Origin: Nitrospiria bacterium
Lineage (GTDB): Bacteria > Nitrospirota > UBA9217
Reading direction: 5' to 3'
Assembly (NCBI GenBank): GCA_919901555.1
Contig: CAKKPG010000211.1
Coordinates: 1-36,031, forward strand
DNA length: 36,031 bases
Positions 6,851 through 15,894 of the stretch are shown piece by piece (positions within the stretch are counted from its first letter, which is position 1; each line of letters opens with the position of its first letter). The notes beneath the pieces were generated by a model. The model searched no databases. It worked only from the letters and a program-made list of their open reading frames with translations, and was not told where the DNA came from. A program made the position numbers and the translations under genes.

Positions 6851-7276
6851 ATGCTGAAAAAACTGCAAAAACAGGGAAACAAAGCCGGATTCAAGCGCAC
6901 CCCGCAGCGGCTTGCCATCCTCGAGTATCTGGAAGGCAACCTGTCGCACCCGTCCGCTGAGGACATCTACCGGGCCGTCTCCCGGAAATACCATTCCATG
7001 TCCTTTGCCACGGTGTACAATACCCTCAACACCCTTGCGAAGGGCGGAGCGGTAAGGGAGCTCACCATCGACCCGGAACGGCGCCGGTATGATCCCGACA
7101 CGAGCCGGCATCATCACCTCATTTGTGTCGATTGCAGGAAGGTCGTGGACATCGCGGGAGACATCGCGGTGGAAATCCCGAAGACCATGGCAAAGGACTT
7201 TACCGTGTTCGGGAACCATGTTGAGTTTTACGGACATTGCGCCCCCTGCGGGAAGAAGAAAAAGAAGAAGCCGTGA
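6851..7276 (+). CDS. perR: Fur-family regulator, PerR-like peroxide sensor
   Basis: This is a DNA-binding metalloregulator of 141 residues with an N-terminal winged helix (about 14-85) and a C-terminal metal and dimer domain. It aligns with the PerR ligand set: His33 (in SHPSAED), Asp81, His87, His89 and Asp100, plus two zinc-site pairs, C92-x2-C95 and C130-x2-C133. Asp at the position equivalent to Bacillus PerR Asp104 favours PerR over Fur. The tail is a run of lysines. The open frame extends upstream to 6812, but that would run through the promoter, so ATG 6851 is used; it has no visible Shine-Dalgarno sequence. Its neighbours, a flavodiiron protein and a rubredoxin, fit an oxygen/peroxide defence role. 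Confidence 0.85.
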   Translation: MLKKLQKQGNKAGFKRTPQRLAILEYLEGNLSHPSAEDIYRAVSRKYHSMSFATVYNTLNTLAKGGAVRELTIDPERRRYDPDTSRHHHLICVDCRKVVDIAGDIAVEIPKTMAKDFTVFGNHVEFYGHCAPCGKKKKKKP

Positions 7277-7523
7277 ACTGTTCTCTCTGCCGGGTCTTCT
7301 GCGGCAGAGCCTCGTGTCCCCCCCGTCCGGTTTCAGCAGATATAAAAAGCCGCAGTGAAGCGATGGCGGGCGGCGCCGGGTGTTCAGCCTCAGGACCTCC
7401 TGATGACCGGATGGCCCCCCGACGCCGGCGGAGCATTTCGCAATGGCGTTGACAGGCCGTGCGTGGGCCTGACAGGAATTCAGATCAATTCCGGTCTTTT
7501 GCTGCGCGTGACAGCGCCGGATA
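7277..7523. other. Spacer between perR and fprA with a stem-loop
   Basis: CTCTGCCG (7285-7292) pairs with CGGCAGAG (7302-7309) across a 9-base loop just after the perR stop. There is no T tract, so it is a weak terminator candidate. CAGGCC (7453-7458) and GGCCTG (7466-7471) form a second small inverted repeat lying between two copies of TGACAGG. TTGACA at 7449-7454 has no matching -10. A real regulator site for fprA could be here, but I cannot name it. Confidence 0.4.
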
Positions 7524-7535
7524 AAGGAGGTTGCT

Positions 7536-8750
7536 ATGGGTGCGGTAGAGATCAAGCCCGGCATTTACTGGGTGGGCGCAGTTGACTGGTCGATTCGGGA
7601 CTTCCATGGGTACATCACCCCGAACGGCACGTCGTACAACAACTATCTTATTCTCGACAAGCACGTGACGCTCGTGGACACGGTAAAGCACGATTTTTCA
7701 CACTATACCATCGACAATATCCGCGCGCTCACGGACCCCGCGAAGATCGAGAACATCATCATCAATCATATCGAGAACGACCACGCCACGAGCATCGAAC
7801 ACATCATGGCGCTCGCGCGCGCAGCCGTGATCCACATCACCGAGCGCGGGAAGAAAGGGCTCGACCGGTTCTTCGATACGTCCAAATGGAAATTCCGTAT
7901 CGTGAAAACGGGCGACACCCTGAACACCGGAACGAAGACGATCACGTTCCTGGAAACGCCGATGCTCCACTGGCCCGACTCCATGATGAGCTATGTCAAG
8001 GAGGACAAGCTCCTCATCAGCCAGGACGCCTTCGGCCAGCACCTCGCGTCGTCCGCCCGGTTCGACGACGAGTACTGCGACCAGTGCTCCACGGTGGAGC
8101 TGGAGCACGCGGTGCGGGACTATTACGCGAACATCCTCATGCCCTTCGGCCCGCTCATCAAGGCCAAGCTCGCCGAGGTGCAGAAGCTCGGCCTCGAGAT
8201 CGACATGATCGCTCCGGACCACGGCATTATTTGGAGACGGGACCCGGGAAAGATCCTCAAGATGTACCTGGACATGGCGAACGGCAAGGCGGACCTCCGC
8301 GTCGTCATCATCTACGATACCATGTGGCAGAGCACCGAATACATGACGACGCCGATCTTGGAGGGGATCAGGGCGGCCGGCGTCGACGTCGAGGTGATCA
8401 AGCTGCGGGCCACGCCGACGAGCATCGCAATCAAGCGGTTCTGGGAATCGCGCGCCATGCTTGTCGGGACGCCGACGCTCAATAACATCATGTTTCCGTC
8501 CGTCGCTGAGTTCCTCTCGCACCTGCGGGGGCTCCGGCCGAAGGACCGGATCGTCGGCGCCTTCGGCAGCTACGGCTGGGGCGGCGGCGCCGTGAAAGAG
8601 GCCTATGGGGAGCTGAAGAAAATGGGGCTCGAAGCGGTGGAGCCGGGCGTGGAGGTCCTCTACCGGCCGAGCGCTGAGGACGAAAAGAAATGCTTTGAGT
8701 TCGGGAAGCAGTTTGCCGAGAAAGTGATCGAGTATCATAAGAAGTTTTAG
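7536..8750 (+). CDS. fprA: A-type flavoprotein (flavodiiron oxygen/NO reductase)
   Basis: This is a cytoplasmic flavodiiron protein of 404 residues that reduces O2 to water or NO to N2O, fed by rubredoxin. The N-terminal metallo-beta-lactamase-like domain (1-250) carries all diiron ligands: H78, E80, D82 and H83 (HIENDH), H145, D164 and H229. The C-terminal flavodoxin-like domain (about 254-404) starts RVVIIYDTMWQSTE, the FMN phosphate loop. A strong AAAGGAGG Shine-Dalgarno sequence sits before ATG 7536. No extra C-terminal rubredoxin domain is fused; the separate rubredoxin gene 128 bases downstream probably supplies electrons. Position after perR suggests peroxide- or oxygen-responsive control. 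Confidence 0.96.
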   Translation: MGAVEIKPGIYWVGAVDWSIRDFHGYITPNGTSYNNYLILDKHVTLVDTVKHDFSHYTIDNIRALTDPAKIENIIINHIENDHATSIEHIMALARAAVIHITERGKKGLDRFFDTSKWKFRIVKTGDTLNTGTKTITFLETPMLHWPDSMMSYVKEDKLLISQDAFGQHLASSARFDDEYCDQCSTVELEHAVRDYYANILMPFGPLIKAKLAEVQKLGLEIDMIAPDHGIIWRRDPGKILKMYLDMANGKADLRVVIIYDTMWQSTEYMTTPILEGIRAAGVDVEVIKLRATPTSIAIKRFWESRAMLVGTPTLNNIMFPSVAEFLSHLRGLRPKDRIVGAFGSYGWGGGAVKEAYGELKKMGLEAVEPGVEVLYRPSAEDEKKCFEFGKQFAEKVIEYHKKF

Positions 8751-8756
8751 TTCTTT

Positions 8757-8857
8757 CACTGCAGAGACCGCAGAGAAAGCCAAAATTTTGACTGGATTAC
8801 AGGATGAGCAGGATAAAAATCAGGATCAGATTTAATCCTGTCGATCCTGTCTAAAAA
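8757..8857. repeat. Palindromic CAGGAT/ATCCTG spacer
   Basis: ACAGGATGAGCAGGAT then AAAAATC (8799-8821) is an imperfect reverse complement of GATTTAATCCTG then TCGATCCTGT (8829-8850). A preceding half-word, GCAGAGACCGCAGAGAAA, lies at 8761-8778. It sits between fprA and the rubredoxin gene and ends a few bases before the Shine-Dalgarno of the latter. Similar ATCCTGT-based spacers are, from memory, common in Desulfobacterota and Nitrospirota genomes. Confidence 0.65.
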
Positions 8858-8878
8858 AGATTCCTGAAGGAGGCGATG

Positions 8879-9007
8879 ATGTGGAGATGCGCCGTATGCG
8901 GGTACGTGTATGACGAGGCAAAGGAGGGGAAGAAGTTCGAGGACCTCCCTGACGATTACAAGTGCCCGGTGTGCAATGCACCGAAAGAGGCGTTCGTCAG
9001 GATGTAG
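8879..9007 (+). CDS. Short rubredoxin
   Basis: This is a small electron carrier with one Fe(Cys)4 site, 42 residues. The cysteines are C4 and C7 ([12 protein letters not shown]) and C29 and C32 ([13 protein letters not shown]). Only 21 residues separate the two pairs, against about 29 in classical 52-54-residue rubredoxins, so the middle loop is shortened, somewhat as in the rubredoxin domain of rubrerythrin. Two ATGs lie at 8876 and 8879; the GGAGG at 8869-8873 is better spaced for 8879. It probably passes electrons to FprA upstream and ends at a good terminator. Confidence 0.93.
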
Positions 9008-9037
9008 AACCCACGCAATCAGTTCCCATCAGCACAG

Positions 9038-9061
9038 GGCGGCCGCCAAGCCGCCTTTTTT
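9038..9061 (+). terminator. Rho-independent terminator after the rubredoxin gene
   Basis: GGCGGC (9038-9043), loop CGCCAA, GCCGCC (9050-9055), then six T (9056-9061). This is a classic form and closes the perR-fprA-rubredoxin region. Confidence 0.88.
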
Positions 9062-9096
9062 ATTTGCCGCAGGGCGCGCAAAAAACCAAATCTTCC

Positions 9097-9125
9097 TTGC
9101 AATTTTCCTGAATCTGTAATATCTT
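9097..9125 (+). promoter_or_regulatory. Tentative promoter of the HEPN/MNT-RecQ-DprA operon
   Basis: TTGCAA (9097-9102), a 17-base spacer, TATCTT (9120-9125). The match is moderate, and it is the best candidate in the gap before the accessory operon. The rest of the gap is AT-richer than its surroundings and has no other recognisable element. Confidence 0.3.
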
Positions 9126-9227
9126 CCATCTCATAACGGCTCCTCAACCCTGCCTGCTTCTGTCGTAATGAGTATGCATAAGGGGCCGCTGCCTCAATCT
9201 TATTCACAAATACAGGACAGAAGTATT

Positions 9228-9320
9228 ATGGCGCGACAGAAGAAGAATCCCGATAAAAAGAAGGGGTTGGGGTATGGCAACCTCAGCGCGACGTATGCCG
9301 AGAGGAGCAGCAAAAAATGA
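9228..9320 (+). CDS. 30-residue basic micro-ORF upstream of the HEPN gene
   Basis: A small frame encodes a lysine-rich peptide, MARQKKNPDKKKGLGYG..., ending in YAERSSKK. AGGACAG (9213-9219) is a plausible Shine-Dalgarno sequence before the ATG at 9228. Its stop overlaps the next start as ATGA at 9317-9320, the same coupling seen at other junctions in this operon. I do not recognise a family. It may be a true leader or accessory peptide of the toxin-antitoxin pair, or the tail of a deleted gene; the proper start and coupling favour the former. Confidence 0.45.
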   Translation: MARQKKNPDKKKGLGYGNLSATYAERSSKK

Positions 9321-9736
9321 AGCTTGATCTGACATCATTTCGCGATGCTTTTGCCGCACTGGAAAGAAGCATGACGTTTCTGAGCTCCAACAGCGCGAAG
9401 AAAGACCCTCTGTTGCATGAGCAATTCCGGAATTCAGCCATTCAGTGCTTTGAATTCACCCATGAGCTGGCGTTCAAGATGATGAAGCGGCAACTGGAGC
9501 AGATGAGCCCTGATCCCGCGGCAATAGACAAAATGGCGTACATGGATATCGTGCGCTCCGCGGCCGAGGCCGGGCTGGTCACCGATATCGCGAGATTCAA
9601 GGACTACCGTGACAAACGCAATATCACCAGTCACACCTACAACCAGGCAAAGGCGGAAAAAATCGAAGCCATACTGCCGGACTTTCGCGATGACATGCGT
9701 TCGTTGCTCGCCGAACTGGAGAAACGGAACCGGTGA
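9317..9736 (+). CDS. HEPN-domain protein of the HI0074 / HepT type (toxin candidate)
   Basis: This is an all-helical HEPN-fold protein of 139 residues in the nucleotidyltransferase substrate-binding family. It contains the HEPN RNase motif R-x4-H-x-Y as R101-NITS-H106-T-Y108. In the characterised HepT/MntA pairs the HEPN protein is an RNase toxin, and the tyrosine of this motif is AMPylated by the MNT partner, which neutralises it. The gene overlaps its partner by four bases (GTGA at 9733-9736), as expected for a two-component module. Function as a toxin is inferred from family and pairing. Confidence 0.88.
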   Translation: MKLDLTSFRDAFAALERSMTFLSSNSAKKDPLLHEQFRNSAIQCFEFTHELAFKMMKRQLEQMSPDPAAIDKMAYMDIVRSAAEAGLVTDIARFKDYRDKRNITSHTYNQAKAEKIEAILPDFRDDMRSLLAELEKRNR

Positions 9737-10059
9737 AACAAATCGACATAAAACCCATTGAACTCGACATCGTCCGAACTATCCTGGCCCGGCATGTGCC
9801 GGAGCGGGAAGTCCGCGCGTTCGGCTCGCGCGTCTCCGGTCCGGCCAAAAAGTTTTCCGACCTCGATCTCGCGGTGATGGGCGAAACTTCCCTATCGTCT
9901 TCCGTTTTGGCGGATTTGGAGGAGGCTTTCCGGGAATCCGACCTGCCCTTCAAGGTCGATGTGGTGGAATGGGCCACGACGAAAGAGAACTTCAGGCGGA
10001 TCATCGAGCAGGAGTACGTGGTGGTGCAGAGAGGGAAGGGGTTAAATAATGGCGGGTAA
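9733..10059 (+). CDS. MNT-type minimal nucleotidyltransferase (antitoxin candidate)
   Basis: This 108-residue nucleotidyltransferase belongs to the MntA/HI0073 group. The signature GS-x10-D-x-D is intact: G31-S32, then D43 and D45 (SDLDLAV). A third acidic residue is likely in KVDVVEW. It starts with GTG inside the stop region of the HEPN gene. The known partner reaction is AMP transfer to the HEPN toxin. The last codons overlap the start of the hsdS remnant. Confidence 0.9.
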   Translation: MKQIDIKPIELDIVRTILARHVPEREVRAFGSRVSGPAKKFSDLDLAVMGETSLSSSVLADLEEAFRESDLPFKVDVVEWATTKENFRRIIEQEYVVVQRGKGLNNGG

Positions 10060-10410
10060 GTGGCGGGAGGTAGTATCAACAGGCTTTGAGGTATTTACTC
10101 CCACTAAAACGCCGTGGAGCCTGCTTCATGCTGCTTTGAACTGTTCGAACAATTAGGGCGCCTGGCAGATGGCGGAGCATATCCTGCTGTTCGGCCGGAA
10201 GTAATCGCACAGAGGCAGTTGCCGTGGCCTGACAGGCCTGGTGCTGCGGAGGCGTTTCATCGTATTTGTGGACCGCTCTATGAAAAGGCCGATCAAAATC
10301 ATTGGGAGTCTCGCCCCCTCGCTGCTATGCGCGACGCGCTGCTGCCGAGGTTGTTGTCGGGGGAGATAAGGGTGAAGGACGCAGAAAAAATTATTGGGGC
10401 GGTCGCATGA
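10049..10410 (+). pseudogene. Broken type I restriction specificity gene (hsdS remnant)
   Basis: The ATG at 10049 opens a frame MAGKWREV, the usual type of HsdS N terminus, but it soon runs out of homology and stops by about 10156. In another frame, 10114-10410 encodes a typical HsdS C-terminal end: a Pro-rich stretch, a helical segment, then ESRPLAAMRDALLPRLLSGEIRVKDAE. The two target-recognition domains and most of the gene are missing. The remnant's final stop overlaps the recQ-like start (ATGA, 10407-10410). No hsdM or hsdR is present. Confidence 0.8.
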
Positions 10411-12485
10411 CGTACAACGCACAGCGTTCATTAGAACTTCTCCGTCTTGGCGCCGGACGAGCCGACGCAGCATTTCGCGAAGGCCAGGAAGATGCGATAC
10501 GCCATCTTGTGGAGGGTCGGGGGCGATTGCTCGTTGTGCAGAAAACGGGCTGGGGCAAGAGCTTTGTCTATTTCATTGCGACCAAACTGCTGCGCGAAGC
10601 GGGCGCAGGTCCGGCGCTTCTCATATCGCCCTTACTCTCGCTGATGCGTAACCAGATCGCGGCGGCGGAGCGGATGGGTGTCCATGCCGAAACGATCAAC
10701 TCCGATAATGAAGAACGCTGGGAACAGGTCGAAGAGAAGATACGGCGCAACGAGGTTGACATATTGCTGATCTCTCCAGAGCGACTGGCGAATGAGCGCT
10801 TTCGCACGAAGGTGCTGGCGAGTGTCGCGGCCCGCATCGCTTTGCTGGTCATCGATGAAGCGCACTGTATATCGGACTGGGGCCATGATTTCCGGCCGCA
10901 CTACCGGCTCATCGAACGGATCGCGAGGACGCTTCCGCAGAACCTTCGGCTGTTAGCCACCACGGCCACAGCGAATAACCGGGTGATGGATGACCTGAAA
11001 TCCGTGCTCGGGCCAAACCTCACGGTATCCCGCGGGGATCTGAACCGGCCATCACTCAAGATCCAGACGCTCCGGTTTCCTCTGCAATCCGAGCGCTTGG
11101 CTTGGCTCGCCGCCCAGGTGCCGAAATTGCCCGGACATGGTATCATCTATACGCTGACTGTGCGTGATGCCGTCCAGGTCGCTGAATGGCTCAAGTCGCG
11201 CGGTATCAAGGTCGAGTCCTACAGCGGGGAAACAGGCGAGCGGCGGCCCGAACTGGAACAGGCGCTTCTGAAAAACGAGGTGAAGGCTTTGGTGGCAACA
11301 ACGGCGCTGGGCATGGGTTTCGACAAGCCTGATCTCGGCTTCGTCATCCACTATCAGGCGCCAGGTTCCGTAGTGGCGTATTATCAGCAGGTCGGACGGG
11401 CAGGTCGCGCTCTCGATGCCGCATACGGAGTCCTGTTGAGCGGCAAGGAAGAGACCGATATCACGGATTACTTCATCAAGACCGCCTTCCCGACAAGGGA
11501 AGAGGTGAAGCAAGTGCTCGATGCATTGCATTCAGTGCCTGCCGGACTTTCCATCCCCGAGTTGATGGGCAGGGTCAACATCAACAAGGGCAGGATCGAG
11601 AAAACGATCTCATTGCTGTCGCTGGAATCTCCGGCGCCTATCGCCAAACAGGGTACGAAGTGGCAGCTGACCGCGACAAAGATGAGTGATGCCTTCCGGC
11701 AGAGGGTGGAACGCCTTACTGAGTTGCGGCGAAAAGAACAGGAGCAAATGCAGGCTTTTGTGAACCTCAAGTCAGGTCACATGGAGTTTCTCATCCGCGC
11801 GCTGGATGGTGCGCCTGAAGATCTTCGTATGCCACCGCTGCCGGAGCTGACTGATACCCTGGATCAGGTACTTGTTCAGGAAGCGGTAAAGTTCCTTCGC
11901 CGGACCAGCCTGCCGATCGAGCCACGCGCAAAATGGCCGGCCGGGGGCATGCTCAAGTATCAACTGAAGGGCTTGATCCCGCCTGAGCATCAGGCACAAC
12001 CGGGAAAGGCGCTTTGCATCTGGGGCGATGCGGGTTGGGGTTCCGTGGTGCGGGAGGGCAAATATCGAGATGGTCACTTTGCCGACGATCTGGTCGCTGC
12101 GTGCAAAAACCTCATCCACGAATGGAAACCGATGCCCGCTCCAGTATGGGTTACGTGCGTTCCATCGCTCCGTCATCCGAAGCTGGTTCCGGATTTCGCG
12201 AAAAGACTGGCTGATGCGCTGCATCTTCCCTTTCTTCCGGTAATAGAGAGAACCGAGAACCGGCCGGAACAGAAGACAATGGCTAACAGCGTTCAGCAGG
12301 CGCGAAATGTCGATGGCTCCCTTGCTGTTAAGAAAGATAAACTCCCGAAGGGGCCGGTGCTGCTGGTCGACGACATGGTAGACTCGTGGTGGACCTTTAC
12401 CGTCGCAGCATGGCTGCTTCGTTCGAATGGCTGCAGTGAAGTATTTCCCTTGGCGCTTGCCCTGACGGCGCATGGTGATCAATGA
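10407..12485 (+). CDS. RecQ-family helicase fused to a phosphoribosyltransferase-like domain
   Basis: 692 residues. The helicase core has motif 0 FREGQ (23-27), Walker A TGWGKS (47-52), the DEAHC box at 150-154 with RecQ-type [11 protein letters not shown], motif III ATTATA, and motif VI QVGRAGR (328-334). The zinc-cluster region keeps the frame MEFLIRALD but the cysteines are replaced: SGHMEFL at 456-462, and LRMPPLP at 473-479 where CGxCxxC is usual. The C-terminal 170 residues look like a type I phosphoribosyltransferase, with the PRPP-binding loop [15 protein letters not shown] starting at residue 651. ATG 10407 is used; an upstream extension would run through the hsdS remnant. It overlaps dprA by four bases. 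The gene probably acts in phage defence or a toxin-antitoxin pair, not as the housekeeping RecQ. Confidence 0.88.
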
Positions 12486-13696
12486 TGGCACTTTCATCTA
12501 ATACACAGGCGATCCTTCTGCTGACGGCCCCGCTGATCGCGGGACGGGGTGCTTCTGAAGGAGAGCCTCTGACACCCGGAGAATACAAAAAACTTGCGCG
12601 CATCCTCCGGGATAACCAACGCGAACCGTCCGATTTCCTCGGCTCCGATGTCGGTATGATTGTCGATCTGTGTAAACAGGTCGTGGATGGCACCCGGTTA
12701 AAGAGGCTCCTCGACAGAGGTTTCCTGCTTACCCAGGCGTACGAACGGTGGCAGGCGCGGGCGATCTGGGTCATTAGCCGGGCTGACGCCGGATATCCCG
12801 AAAGGTTAAAGGCTCGACTCAGGGACGATGCTCCGCCTGTTCTGTACGGCTGCGGGGACGCGGCGCTCCTGGAAACGGGCGGTCTGGCAATCGTCGGATC
12901 GCGGAATGTGGACTCTGCGCTTGTAGAATATACCGAGGGCATCGGCAGACTGGCGGCAGAAGCAAAGCGGACTGTGGTTTCGGGTGGAGCACGGGGAATC
13001 GATCAGGCTGCAATGAGGGGCGCCTTGGCTGCGGGAGGTCGTGTCGTTGGGGTCCTGGCAGAAAATCTTGAACGTATGGCCCTGGTCCGGGAACATCGTG
13101 AATTCCTGATGGAGGGGCGGCTGGTGCTGATCTCGCCCTATGATCCGTCAGCCGGGTTCAATGTCGGAAACGCGATGCAGCGTAATAAGTTGATCTACGC
13201 GTTTGCGGATGGAGCACTTGTGGTGAGTTCCGACGTGGAGAAGGGCGGGACATGGGCAGGAGCAATAGAGCAATTGAAAAAGCTGCGGTTTGTTCCGGTC
13301 TATGTCCGCACGAAGGGTGAAACAAGCAAGGGACTTGATGCGCTTCGAAGAAAGGGCGCCTTGCCCTGGCCGAATCCAGCGACGACGGAAGCATTTGCAG
13401 GAGCTTTGGCAGCGAAAATCTACCCTGAACAAGGCGCTCCTGGTCAGGATGAACTGTCCTTCGCAGTGCGAGAAGAGTCCATGGTACTTTCATCTGAAGA
13501 TTTGTGTGAAAAGTTGAGAGAGTTGCTTCAGAATACGAAGACAACTCAGACCGAGGCAGATTTAGTAAATATGCTTGGTATCTCCAAGAGCCAGGCGAAA
13601 GGATGTCTGAAGCTTCTTGTGAAGGAAGGCGCCGTGAAGAAGCTTTCGAAGCCAGTCCGATACCAGGCGGTTGAAACCTCAGGACGATTGTTTTAA
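12482..13696 (+). CDS. DprA/Smf-like Rossmann protein with C-terminal winged helix
   Basis: 404 residues. The Rossmann-like DprA core (about 95-310) has the family signatures IVGSRN (137-142), SGGARGID (167-174), and later [20 protein letters not shown] with [10 protein letters not shown]. The C-terminal segment (about 335-395) predicts a winged helix. Classical DprA binds single-stranded DNA and loads RecA. In ShosTA-type systems a DprA-like protein is the antitoxin for a phosphoribosyltransferase-domain toxin, which matches the fused domain in the gene just upstream. ATGA overlap with that gene indicates one functional unit. It is unlikely to be the competence dprA. Confidence 0.88.
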
Positions 13697-14209: not shown

Positions 14210-14244
14210 AGCCCAGCTGACATTAAGGTCAATTGGGATATTCT

Positions 14245-15894
14245 ATGTTTACCTATTTCTACCGAAAAGACGACCAGGACATCTTCACCGGGCGCAAGCA
14301 TGAACTGTCCCTCCTGGAGGGGTGCCTGCTCGCAAAGCGTCCGGCGGACGCGCACCTTTCGGGGCTGCGGCGCATCGGAAAGACCATGCTCATCAAGGAG
14401 TTCATCAAGCGCCGCCTTCGCGACCGGGCCGTTCTGCCGGTCTACGTCAACCTGGAGGAGATTGCGGAGACGCCCGAGGACTTTGCTCTCAAGTTTATAG
14501 GATGGCATCTCTATTGGCATTATACGAAGGGTGACCGGCTCCCCGGGCCTTTTCTGCACCTGCCGTCGCTCCTGTTCGAGGTGCATGACAAAGCGCTGCG
14601 GGACGCCCTCCTGCCGATCACGCAGGAACTGGAAAAGGCGAAGCCCGACCGGCAGCGGCTGCTCCAGGAGTGTTTCGGGTTCTCCGAATCGCTCGCCCGG
14701 TTTACGAAAAGACGGGTGCTGCTCTTTCTCGACGAGTTTCAGGAAATCCAGAACCTTACCAATTTCGACCAGACGAAGAACATCCTGAAAATCATGCGCG
14801 GCGTCAAAGACCGGTCCGCGAACGTGACCTACTGCATCAGCGGCTCGATCATCTCGGAGATGGAATGGATCACCAAAGACGACCGGAGTCCGTTCTTTAA
14901 TCAGTTCAGCCACATTGCCGTTCCTCCCTATTCTCCGGAAGAGTCGCGTGAACTCATCCGCAAGTTCATCCCGGACATTGACGCGCGGAACGCCGGCCTC
15001 CTGCATCACTATAGCGGGGGGAACCCGTTTTACCTCGTCCAACTCCTGAGGAAGGCCGTGCTGTTTCTTGGCCGCGGCGAGGAAGTGTCGGAAAGCCTGA
15101 TCAAACGCGCGTTCATTTCCGAGACCCTTTCCCCGAACGGACTGATCCACTCCTATTGCAACTATCTCTATTCCGTTTCGCTGCAGCGCGCCAAGGGATA
15201 CGGCGTGCTGAAATCGCTCCTGGACGCCATCGCCGCCTCAGAATCCCCGATGACCCAGTCCGAGCTCGCCCGTGACCTCAGGATGACCCAGGGCGCGGTC
15301 AGGGTCAACCTGAAGGAGCTGCAGGCCATCGGTCTGCTCATGGAGCGGGACCGGCGATATTTTTACAACGACCCGGTGCTCAGGTACTGGGTGGCATACG
15401 TCCAGAACGGCATCGAGGCCCCGGACTTTCCGAAAAAGAAAGACCTGCTCTCCCTCATTGAGGAACTGGACCGGAAGTACCGGCTCGTTTCGGAAGAGCT
15501 GGGTCGGGAGAAAGAGGGGATGATACGAGAATTGATGCGGCTTTTTGCCGGCCAGAGGGTGGAGGGAAAATTGTTCGGCGCTGTCGGATCGGTCGCACTT
15601 CCCCGATTTAAAACCATCGAGCGTTTTGTCTCGGATGACGGCAGGACGGAGATCGACGTGTTGGCGAGAAACAGTATGAGATGGGCGGTGGAGGTGAAGT
15701 GGAAGAGCAAGGCGGCGGGAGAAAAAGAAGTCTCGGCTTTTTTCAGGAAGGCTTCGGCCATTGCCGACCGATGCTGGTACGTATCGAAGGCCGGTTTTAC
15801 CCTGGAGGCCAAGGCCTTCGCCTCGAAAAAAGAAATGTTTTTCTCTTCGGAGCGTGATATCGGCATTCTGAAAAAGGAACTGGAAAAGGCATGA
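14245..15894 (+). CDS. Archaeal-type AAA ATPase with C-terminal PD-(D/E)xK-like domain
   Basis: 549 residues. The N-terminal P-loop is GLRRIGKT (40-47), the GxRRxGKT form of the archaeal ATPase / STAND-related family, with Walker B RVLLFLDEFQE (157-167). A winged-helix segment lies around 320-370 (SPMTQSELARDLRMTQ). The C-terminal region (about 430-549) resembles DUF234: D471 and E483-V-K485 form a PD-(D/E)xK-like core. It has its own strong promoter. ATG 14245 is chosen over an in-frame TTG at 14233, which has the better-spaced AAGG, so the start is uncertain by four codons. Members are scattered in archaea and bacteria, often in accessory regions; the function is unknown, with nuclease-linked defence or toxin activity possible. 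Confidence 0.8.
   Translation: MFTYFYRKDDQDIFTGRKHELSLLEGCLLAKRPADAHLSGLRRIGKTMLIKEFIKRRLRDRAVLPVYVNLEEIAETPEDFALKFIGWHLYWHYTKGDRLPGPFLHLPSLLFEVHDKALRDALLPITQELEKAKPDRQRLLQECFGFSESLARFTKRRVLLFLDEFQEIQNLTNFDQTKNILKIMRGVKDRSANVTYCISGSIISEMEWITKDDRSPFFNQFSHIAVPPYSPEESRELIRKFIPDIDARNAGLLHHYSGGNPFYLVQLLRKAVLFLGRGEEVSESLIKRAFISETLSPNGLIHSYCNYLYSVSLQRAKGYGVLKSLLDAIAASESPMTQSELARDLRMTQGAVRVNLKELQAIGLLMERDRRYFYNDPVLRYWVAYVQNGIEAPDFPKKKDLLSLIEELDRKYRLVSEELGREKEGMIRELMRLFAGQRVEGKLFGAVGSVALPRFKTIERFVSDDGRTEIDVLARNSMRWAVEVKWKSKAAGEKEVSAFFRKASAIADRCWYVSKAGFTLEAKAFASKKEMFFSSERDIGILKKELEKA

Follow-up and report, generated by a model that had tools for sequence, protein, structure and literature searches.

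The two overlapping genes at positions 10407-13696 of the window (the entire 36,031-nucleotide stretch of Nitrospiria DNA that was analyzed) almost certainly constitute a PsyrTA module, also known as RqlHI. Overall, the data are best explained by a PsyrTA/RqlHI module in which the phosphoribosyltransferase (PRTase) tail of a RecQ-like helicase is the toxic part and a DprA-like antitoxin is produced from an overlapping start; the probability of this reading is estimated at roughly 0.85. The pair is an already named and experimentally studied system and opens no new class. PsyrTA is a validated toxin-antitoxin family according to the citation of Sberro et al. 2013 in PMC8790059, and the helicase-PRTase/DprA-like architecture of RqlHI was worked out in extraintestinal E. 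coli (Russell & Mulvey 2015, PMC4670107). In E. coli, RqlH on its own induces the SOS response, makes cells filament and raises the mutation rate, and both growth inhibition and SOS induction are abolished by the RqlH D663A exchange or by deletion of the PRTase domain (PMC4670107). RqlI restrains RqlH, and the co-immunoprecipitation of the two proteins depends on the RqlH PRTase domain (PMC4670107). The value of the present locus lies in an example of PsyrTA in Nitrospirota, in a zinc-less toxin subfamily and in repeated nesting between hsdS and hsdR. These features offer handles on the target and the release signal of the PRTases of the PsyrTA family.

Table 1. Positions of the psyrTA genes, their domains and motifs, and the adjoining hsdS remnant in the window.
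Feature	Residues or length	Position	Strand	Basis or remark
hsdS 3' remnant	98-codon ORF	about 10108..10410	+	HsdS profile; stop overlaps psyrT start by 4 bp
psyrT / rqlH (toxin; RecQ-like helicase and C-terminal phosphoribosyltransferase)	692 aa	10407..12485	+	ATG start
RecQ helicase core of PsyrT	~22-369	10470..11513	+	NCBIfam recQ/recQ_fam
Walker A TGWGKS of PsyrT	47-52	10545-10562	+	
DEAH box of PsyrT	150-153	10854-10865	+	reads DEAHC
PRTase domain of PsyrT	495-692	11889..12482	+	AlphaFold, Foldseek, profile matches
PRPP-type loop of PsyrT	651-665 (15 residues)	12357-12401	+	
psyrA / rqlI (DprA-like antitoxin)	404 aa	12482..13696	+	PADLOC PsyrA; 4-bp overlap with psyrT
DprA Rossmann-like domain of PsyrA	90-293	12749..13360	+	PF02481; high-confidence model region
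Winged-helix-like C-terminal domain of PsyrA	~338-399	13493..13678	+	AlphaFold, weak HTH Pfam matches

Identification of the PsyrTA pair

The comparison with defense-system models that the initial annotation had proposed yielded PADLOC matches for both proteins over their full length (PsyrT, 917 bits; PsyrA, 447 bits), with the next-best models far behind. The psyrT product scored 916.6 bits on PDLC03928, its residues 1-691 aligning to model positions 1-688/689, and PsyrA scored 446.7 bits on PDLC03927. Full-length homologs share 72-75% identity with PsyrT of the window. A sister pair in another genome of the same family is 75% and 67% identical to the two window proteins and displays the same 4-bp overlap; as both proteins and the overlap are kept, a chance association is excluded. 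The link to the experimentally characterized system is provided by an E. coli RqlH-like toxin (P0004, locus L095), which reaches 1065 bits on the PADLOC PsyrT model and shares 49% identity with the window PsyrT over its length. Its residues K49, D148 and D663 correspond to the published numbering of the RqlH mutants and align to K51, D150 and D656 of the window protein; the DIVD loop of the E. coli toxin starts at D663.

The domain reading of the initial annotation, i.e. a RecQ core, a C-terminal PRTase and a DprA gene overlapping by four bases, was borne out in all three parts. PsyrT exceeds the cut-off of the NCBIfam recQ_fam model (229 bits, cut-off 219.8) and carries an intact Walker A motif and DEAH box, motifs that are kept in 75-76 of 77 homologs. 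On the recQ equivalog model it stays below the cut-off (257.7 bits versus 640), and the protein is thus a member of a RecQ-like subfamily only and not a canonical RecQ equivalog. For the tail, PF00156 was matched with E=0.024 in a single-sequence Pfam search, which falls short of the cut-off, so that evidence from fold and profile was needed. In the PDB, a profile of residues 495-692 built from 71 homologs found PRPP synthetases and PRTases (E~1e-5), and the AlphaFold model obtained from the same 71-sequence alignment has a mean pLDDT of 94.8 and a pTM of 0.91. Foldseek matches of this model include APRT, PurF, ComF and ShosT, with query TM values of 0.53 for ComF (7p0h) and 0.48 for ShosT (8zvd). 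A PRTase fold of the PsyrT tail is therefore predicted with confidence. Within the PRPP-type loop, D655 and W662 are invariant across 77 homologs and D656, S660 and T663 nearly so; D656 is the acidic residue that aligns to RqlH D663. The residue preceding W662 is a tryptophan in the window protein alone, the other homologs having R, G, A, K or T.

PsyrA matches the DprA family PF02481 with about 128-130 bits. Its AlphaFold model (pLDDT 92.8) is closest in the PDB to ShosA (8zva), with DprA structures next, and places helices at residues 338-351, 358-365 and 369-381 together with two strands in the C-terminal domain.

Probable remains of a type I restriction operon

The stop codon of a truncated hsdS gene overlaps the start of psyrT. 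An HsdS profile built from related loci matched this stump with E=2.4e-8 over profile positions 333-414 of 440. By eye, a short ORF on the plus strand starting with MAGKWREV at position 10049 resembles the start of HsdS, and the hsdS gene at 10049-10410 appears internally deleted, its profile-supported 3' stump being located at 10114-10410. No intact hsdM or hsdR is found in the window; restriction-modification (RM) genes are present elsewhere in the draft genome. An E. coli plasmid (L093) has the complete order hsdM-hsdS-psyrT-psyrA-hsdR in its annotation, loci of Providencia (L079) and Vibrio (L058) show it as well, and hsdR immediately follows psyrA in the nearest relative of the window (L013) and in a locus of the same phylum (L115). 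Judged from these complete operons, from the downstream hsdR of the nearest relative and from the overlap with the stump, the window probably holds the remains of an hsdM-hsdS-psyrT-psyrA-hsdR operon. As far as could be found, the recurrent nesting of PsyrTA in type I restriction operons is a modestly new detail.

These gene orders, together with the overlap of the hsdS stump and the psyrT start, would also be expected if PsyrTA were a working accessory of the type I RM operon, e.g. a guard that fires when HsdMSR restriction fails or is inhibited. This explanation appears improbable, as type I RM genes account for just 4 of 66 downstream neighbors (HsdR) and 4 of 70 upstream neighbors (HsdS), so that most pairs stand without them, an E. 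coli rqlHI-type pair is located between gntU and yhgN without any RM genes, and hsdM and hsdR are absent from the window itself.

Distribution and genomic neighborhoods

The PsyrTA/RqlHI reading is in agreement with the distribution of the pair. Counting of co-occurrence, which had been suggested at the outset, revealed psyrA directly 3' of the psyrT homolog in 65 of the 69 loci with enough downstream sequence, and these loci stem from many phyla. Within the phylum of the window, full-scoring PsyrT proteins were detected in 6 of 296 genomes, two of the six being partial, and the other matches were ordinary RecQ proteins. The search of 50,697 phage genome records gave matches to the helicase core only and no full-length PsyrT. 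Neighboring families in other genomes include type I RM, Hma (three cases of an Hma-type methylase), GmrSD (three cases), HamA, JetD and BrxL among many unrelated genes. This combination of sporadic spread and defense-type neighbors is the pattern of a mobile defense or toxin-antitoxin module and not of a housekeeping pair. The possibility, raised in the initial annotation, that homologous pairs would occur solely as housekeeping genes outside variable regions does not apply, since they are found in variable or defense neighborhoods.

Nevertheless, RecQ and DprA are both recombination families, and one could envision a housekeeping or repair pair in which a second RecQ and the DprA of the cell serve recombination or the uptake of DNA and lack any toxin function. 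Strong canonical DprA proteins (PF02481, ~245-264 bits) were detected in 12 other genomes of the family, and the genome of the window (G000) shows only PsyrA and two weak partial DprA matches. In the absence of a strong canonical DprA, PsyrA could in principle stand in for it or have a second housekeeping role; the draft genome is 96% complete, so the missing dprA may equally reflect an assembly gap. A housekeeping pair is considered very unlikely, as a separate RecQ of 616 aa is encoded in the same genome (contig C122), PsyrA scores 447 bits on the PsyrA model versus 90.6 bits on the dprA equivalog model (cut-off 191), canonical DprA and PsyrA are both present in the sister genome G011, and the pair is sporadic within the phylum while its close clade crosses many phyla. 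Filing of the genes as canonical RecQ and DprA was rejected, both proteins being under the respective equivalog cut-offs.

Several individual loci deserve mention. In one locus of the same phylum (L116), psyrT is broken into three ORFs at 8001-9910 on the minus strand and psyrA is open at 7003-8040 on the same strand, which is consistent with loss or decay of the toxin. Large same-strand genes adjoin psyrTA in L059, L064 and L075; assigned by position and size, they are probably the genes with HmaB/DUF1156-type methylase and DUF499 matches, which suggests that Hma-type operons, too, can harbor a nested psyrTA, besides those of type I RM. The IS3-like element ISEc52 splits psyrTA at NZ_CP124405.1:3043220-3047991 in E. 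coli AVS0935; apart from the insertion the locus is ~100% identical, and a piece annotated as a ComF family protein is left behind.

In the window itself, a HepT-like (nucleotidyltransferase-substrate-binding) gene at 9317-9736 and a small MNT-type nucleotidyltransferase gene at 9733-10059, both on the plus strand and overlapping by 4 bp, are located just upstream and likely form a second toxin-antitoxin-type pair. For the MNT-type protein, PADLOC additionally gives a match to the N-terminal part of a type I specificity model. Downstream, the product of the plus-strand gene at 14239-15894 combines an AAA ATPase (AAA_14/ATPase_2), an HTH and, at its C-terminus, an Mrr-like nuclease domain; its matches to the PADLOC candidate PDC-S27 are weak.

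A zinc-less PsyrT clade

A four-cysteine zinc motif is kept in 51 of 53 more distant PsyrT homologs and is missing in the window protein and in 23 homologs of at least 62% identity to it, a sharp identity gap that may be partly a sampling effect because the homologs were gathered with patterns drawn from the window protein. The zinc-less sequences form a clade of 26 members, including two more from the phylum, with 100% SH-aLRT support. They are spread over Nitrospirota, Pseudomonadota, Chlorobiota, Planctomycetota, Actinomycetota and others. With ~49% identity to the tested E. coli type and no zinc motif, the helicase of this clade may behave differently. A non-exhaustive literature search did not find this subfamily singled out, and the clade is, as far as could be found, a modestly new detail. 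It is an improbable extension that the clade represents a mechanistically distinct branch in which the RecQ zinc element was lost, and that type I restriction (and Hma-like) operons harbor PsyrTA as an exchangeable guard that fires upon loss or inhibition of the operon around it. If this were true, the window would be a relic that kept the guard after deletion of its restriction operon.

Proposed mechanism

The activity of the window pair can be outlined by transfer from E. coli RqlHI, and on this analogy it is likely that the PRTase is toxic and restrained by PsyrA. PsyrA would bind the PRTase domain and thereby hold PsyrT in check. Loss, titration or diversion of PsyrA would set off a reaction dependent on the PRPP pocket, with DNA damage, SOS induction and growth arrest as the outcome. 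The helicase would load on single-stranded DNA, on processed DNA ends or on damaged DNA and bring the PRTase to these sites. PsyrA, via its DprA fold, would sense foreign or phage-generated single-stranded DNA and then let go of the toxin, and the release of PsyrT during infection or plasmid entry would act as abortive infection. A trigger by phage or other foreign DNA is plausible at somewhat less than even odds, and phage defense by PsyrTA itself is weakly supported. The trigger suggested in the initial annotation, DNA ends or unwinding, is hypothetical. A study in a native host, E. coli strain NILS69, detected no protection against phages by PsyrTA and noted a growth defect when the pair was expressed (PMC12409345).

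Comparison with known systems

The competence proteins ComF and DprA share the PRTase fold (ComF, 7p0h) and the DprA fold with the window pair. In contrast to ComF, the window PRTase is fused to RecQ and not paired with ComFA, and PsyrA differs from DprA by its score under the dprA equivalog cut-off. ShosTA resembles the window pair in having a PRTase toxin and a DprA-like antitoxin of similar folds, but the profile scores of the window pair are far lower for this system and the PDB chain of ShosT has a length of 412. ShosT is not a RecQ fusion. A true ShosTA variant whose ShosT had acquired a helicase would be supported by the structural matches to ShosT and ShosA and by an 87-bit ShosA profile match, but is very unlikely because PsyrA scores 447 bits on its own model, no ShosT model is among the best 25 PADLOC matches listed for PsyrT and the ComF fold match is at least as good as that of ShosT. 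Filing under ShosTA was rejected on the PADLOC scores, the toxin being a helicase fusion and the antitoxin scoring best on the PsyrA model; a relationship to ShosTA is favored over membership. The initial annotation had described the pair as a ShosTA-like system with a helicase. Its domain reading and the toxin/antitoxin analogy hold, but the supposed new twist does not, since this arrangement is that of PsyrTA/RqlHI (PADLOC model, PMC4670107). The analogy itself is sound but not new, because shosTA, syrTA and rqlHI had already been grouped by their DprA-homolog antitoxins (Rousset et al. 2022, PMC9122126).

With PsyrTA, a system of both PADLOC and TADB, the window pair has both proteins, the gene order and full-length model matches in common. 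The window copy belongs to the clade without the four-cysteine zinc motif. RqlHI differs in that the toxins are ~49% identical, in that the E. coli protein contains a CGKCSSC zinc motif that the window PsyrT does not have, and in a chromosomal site and neighbors unlike those of the window. The two systems agree in a helicase-PRTase toxin, a DprA-like inhibitor, the aligned lysine and two aspartate residues, and genes that are adjacent or overlapping.
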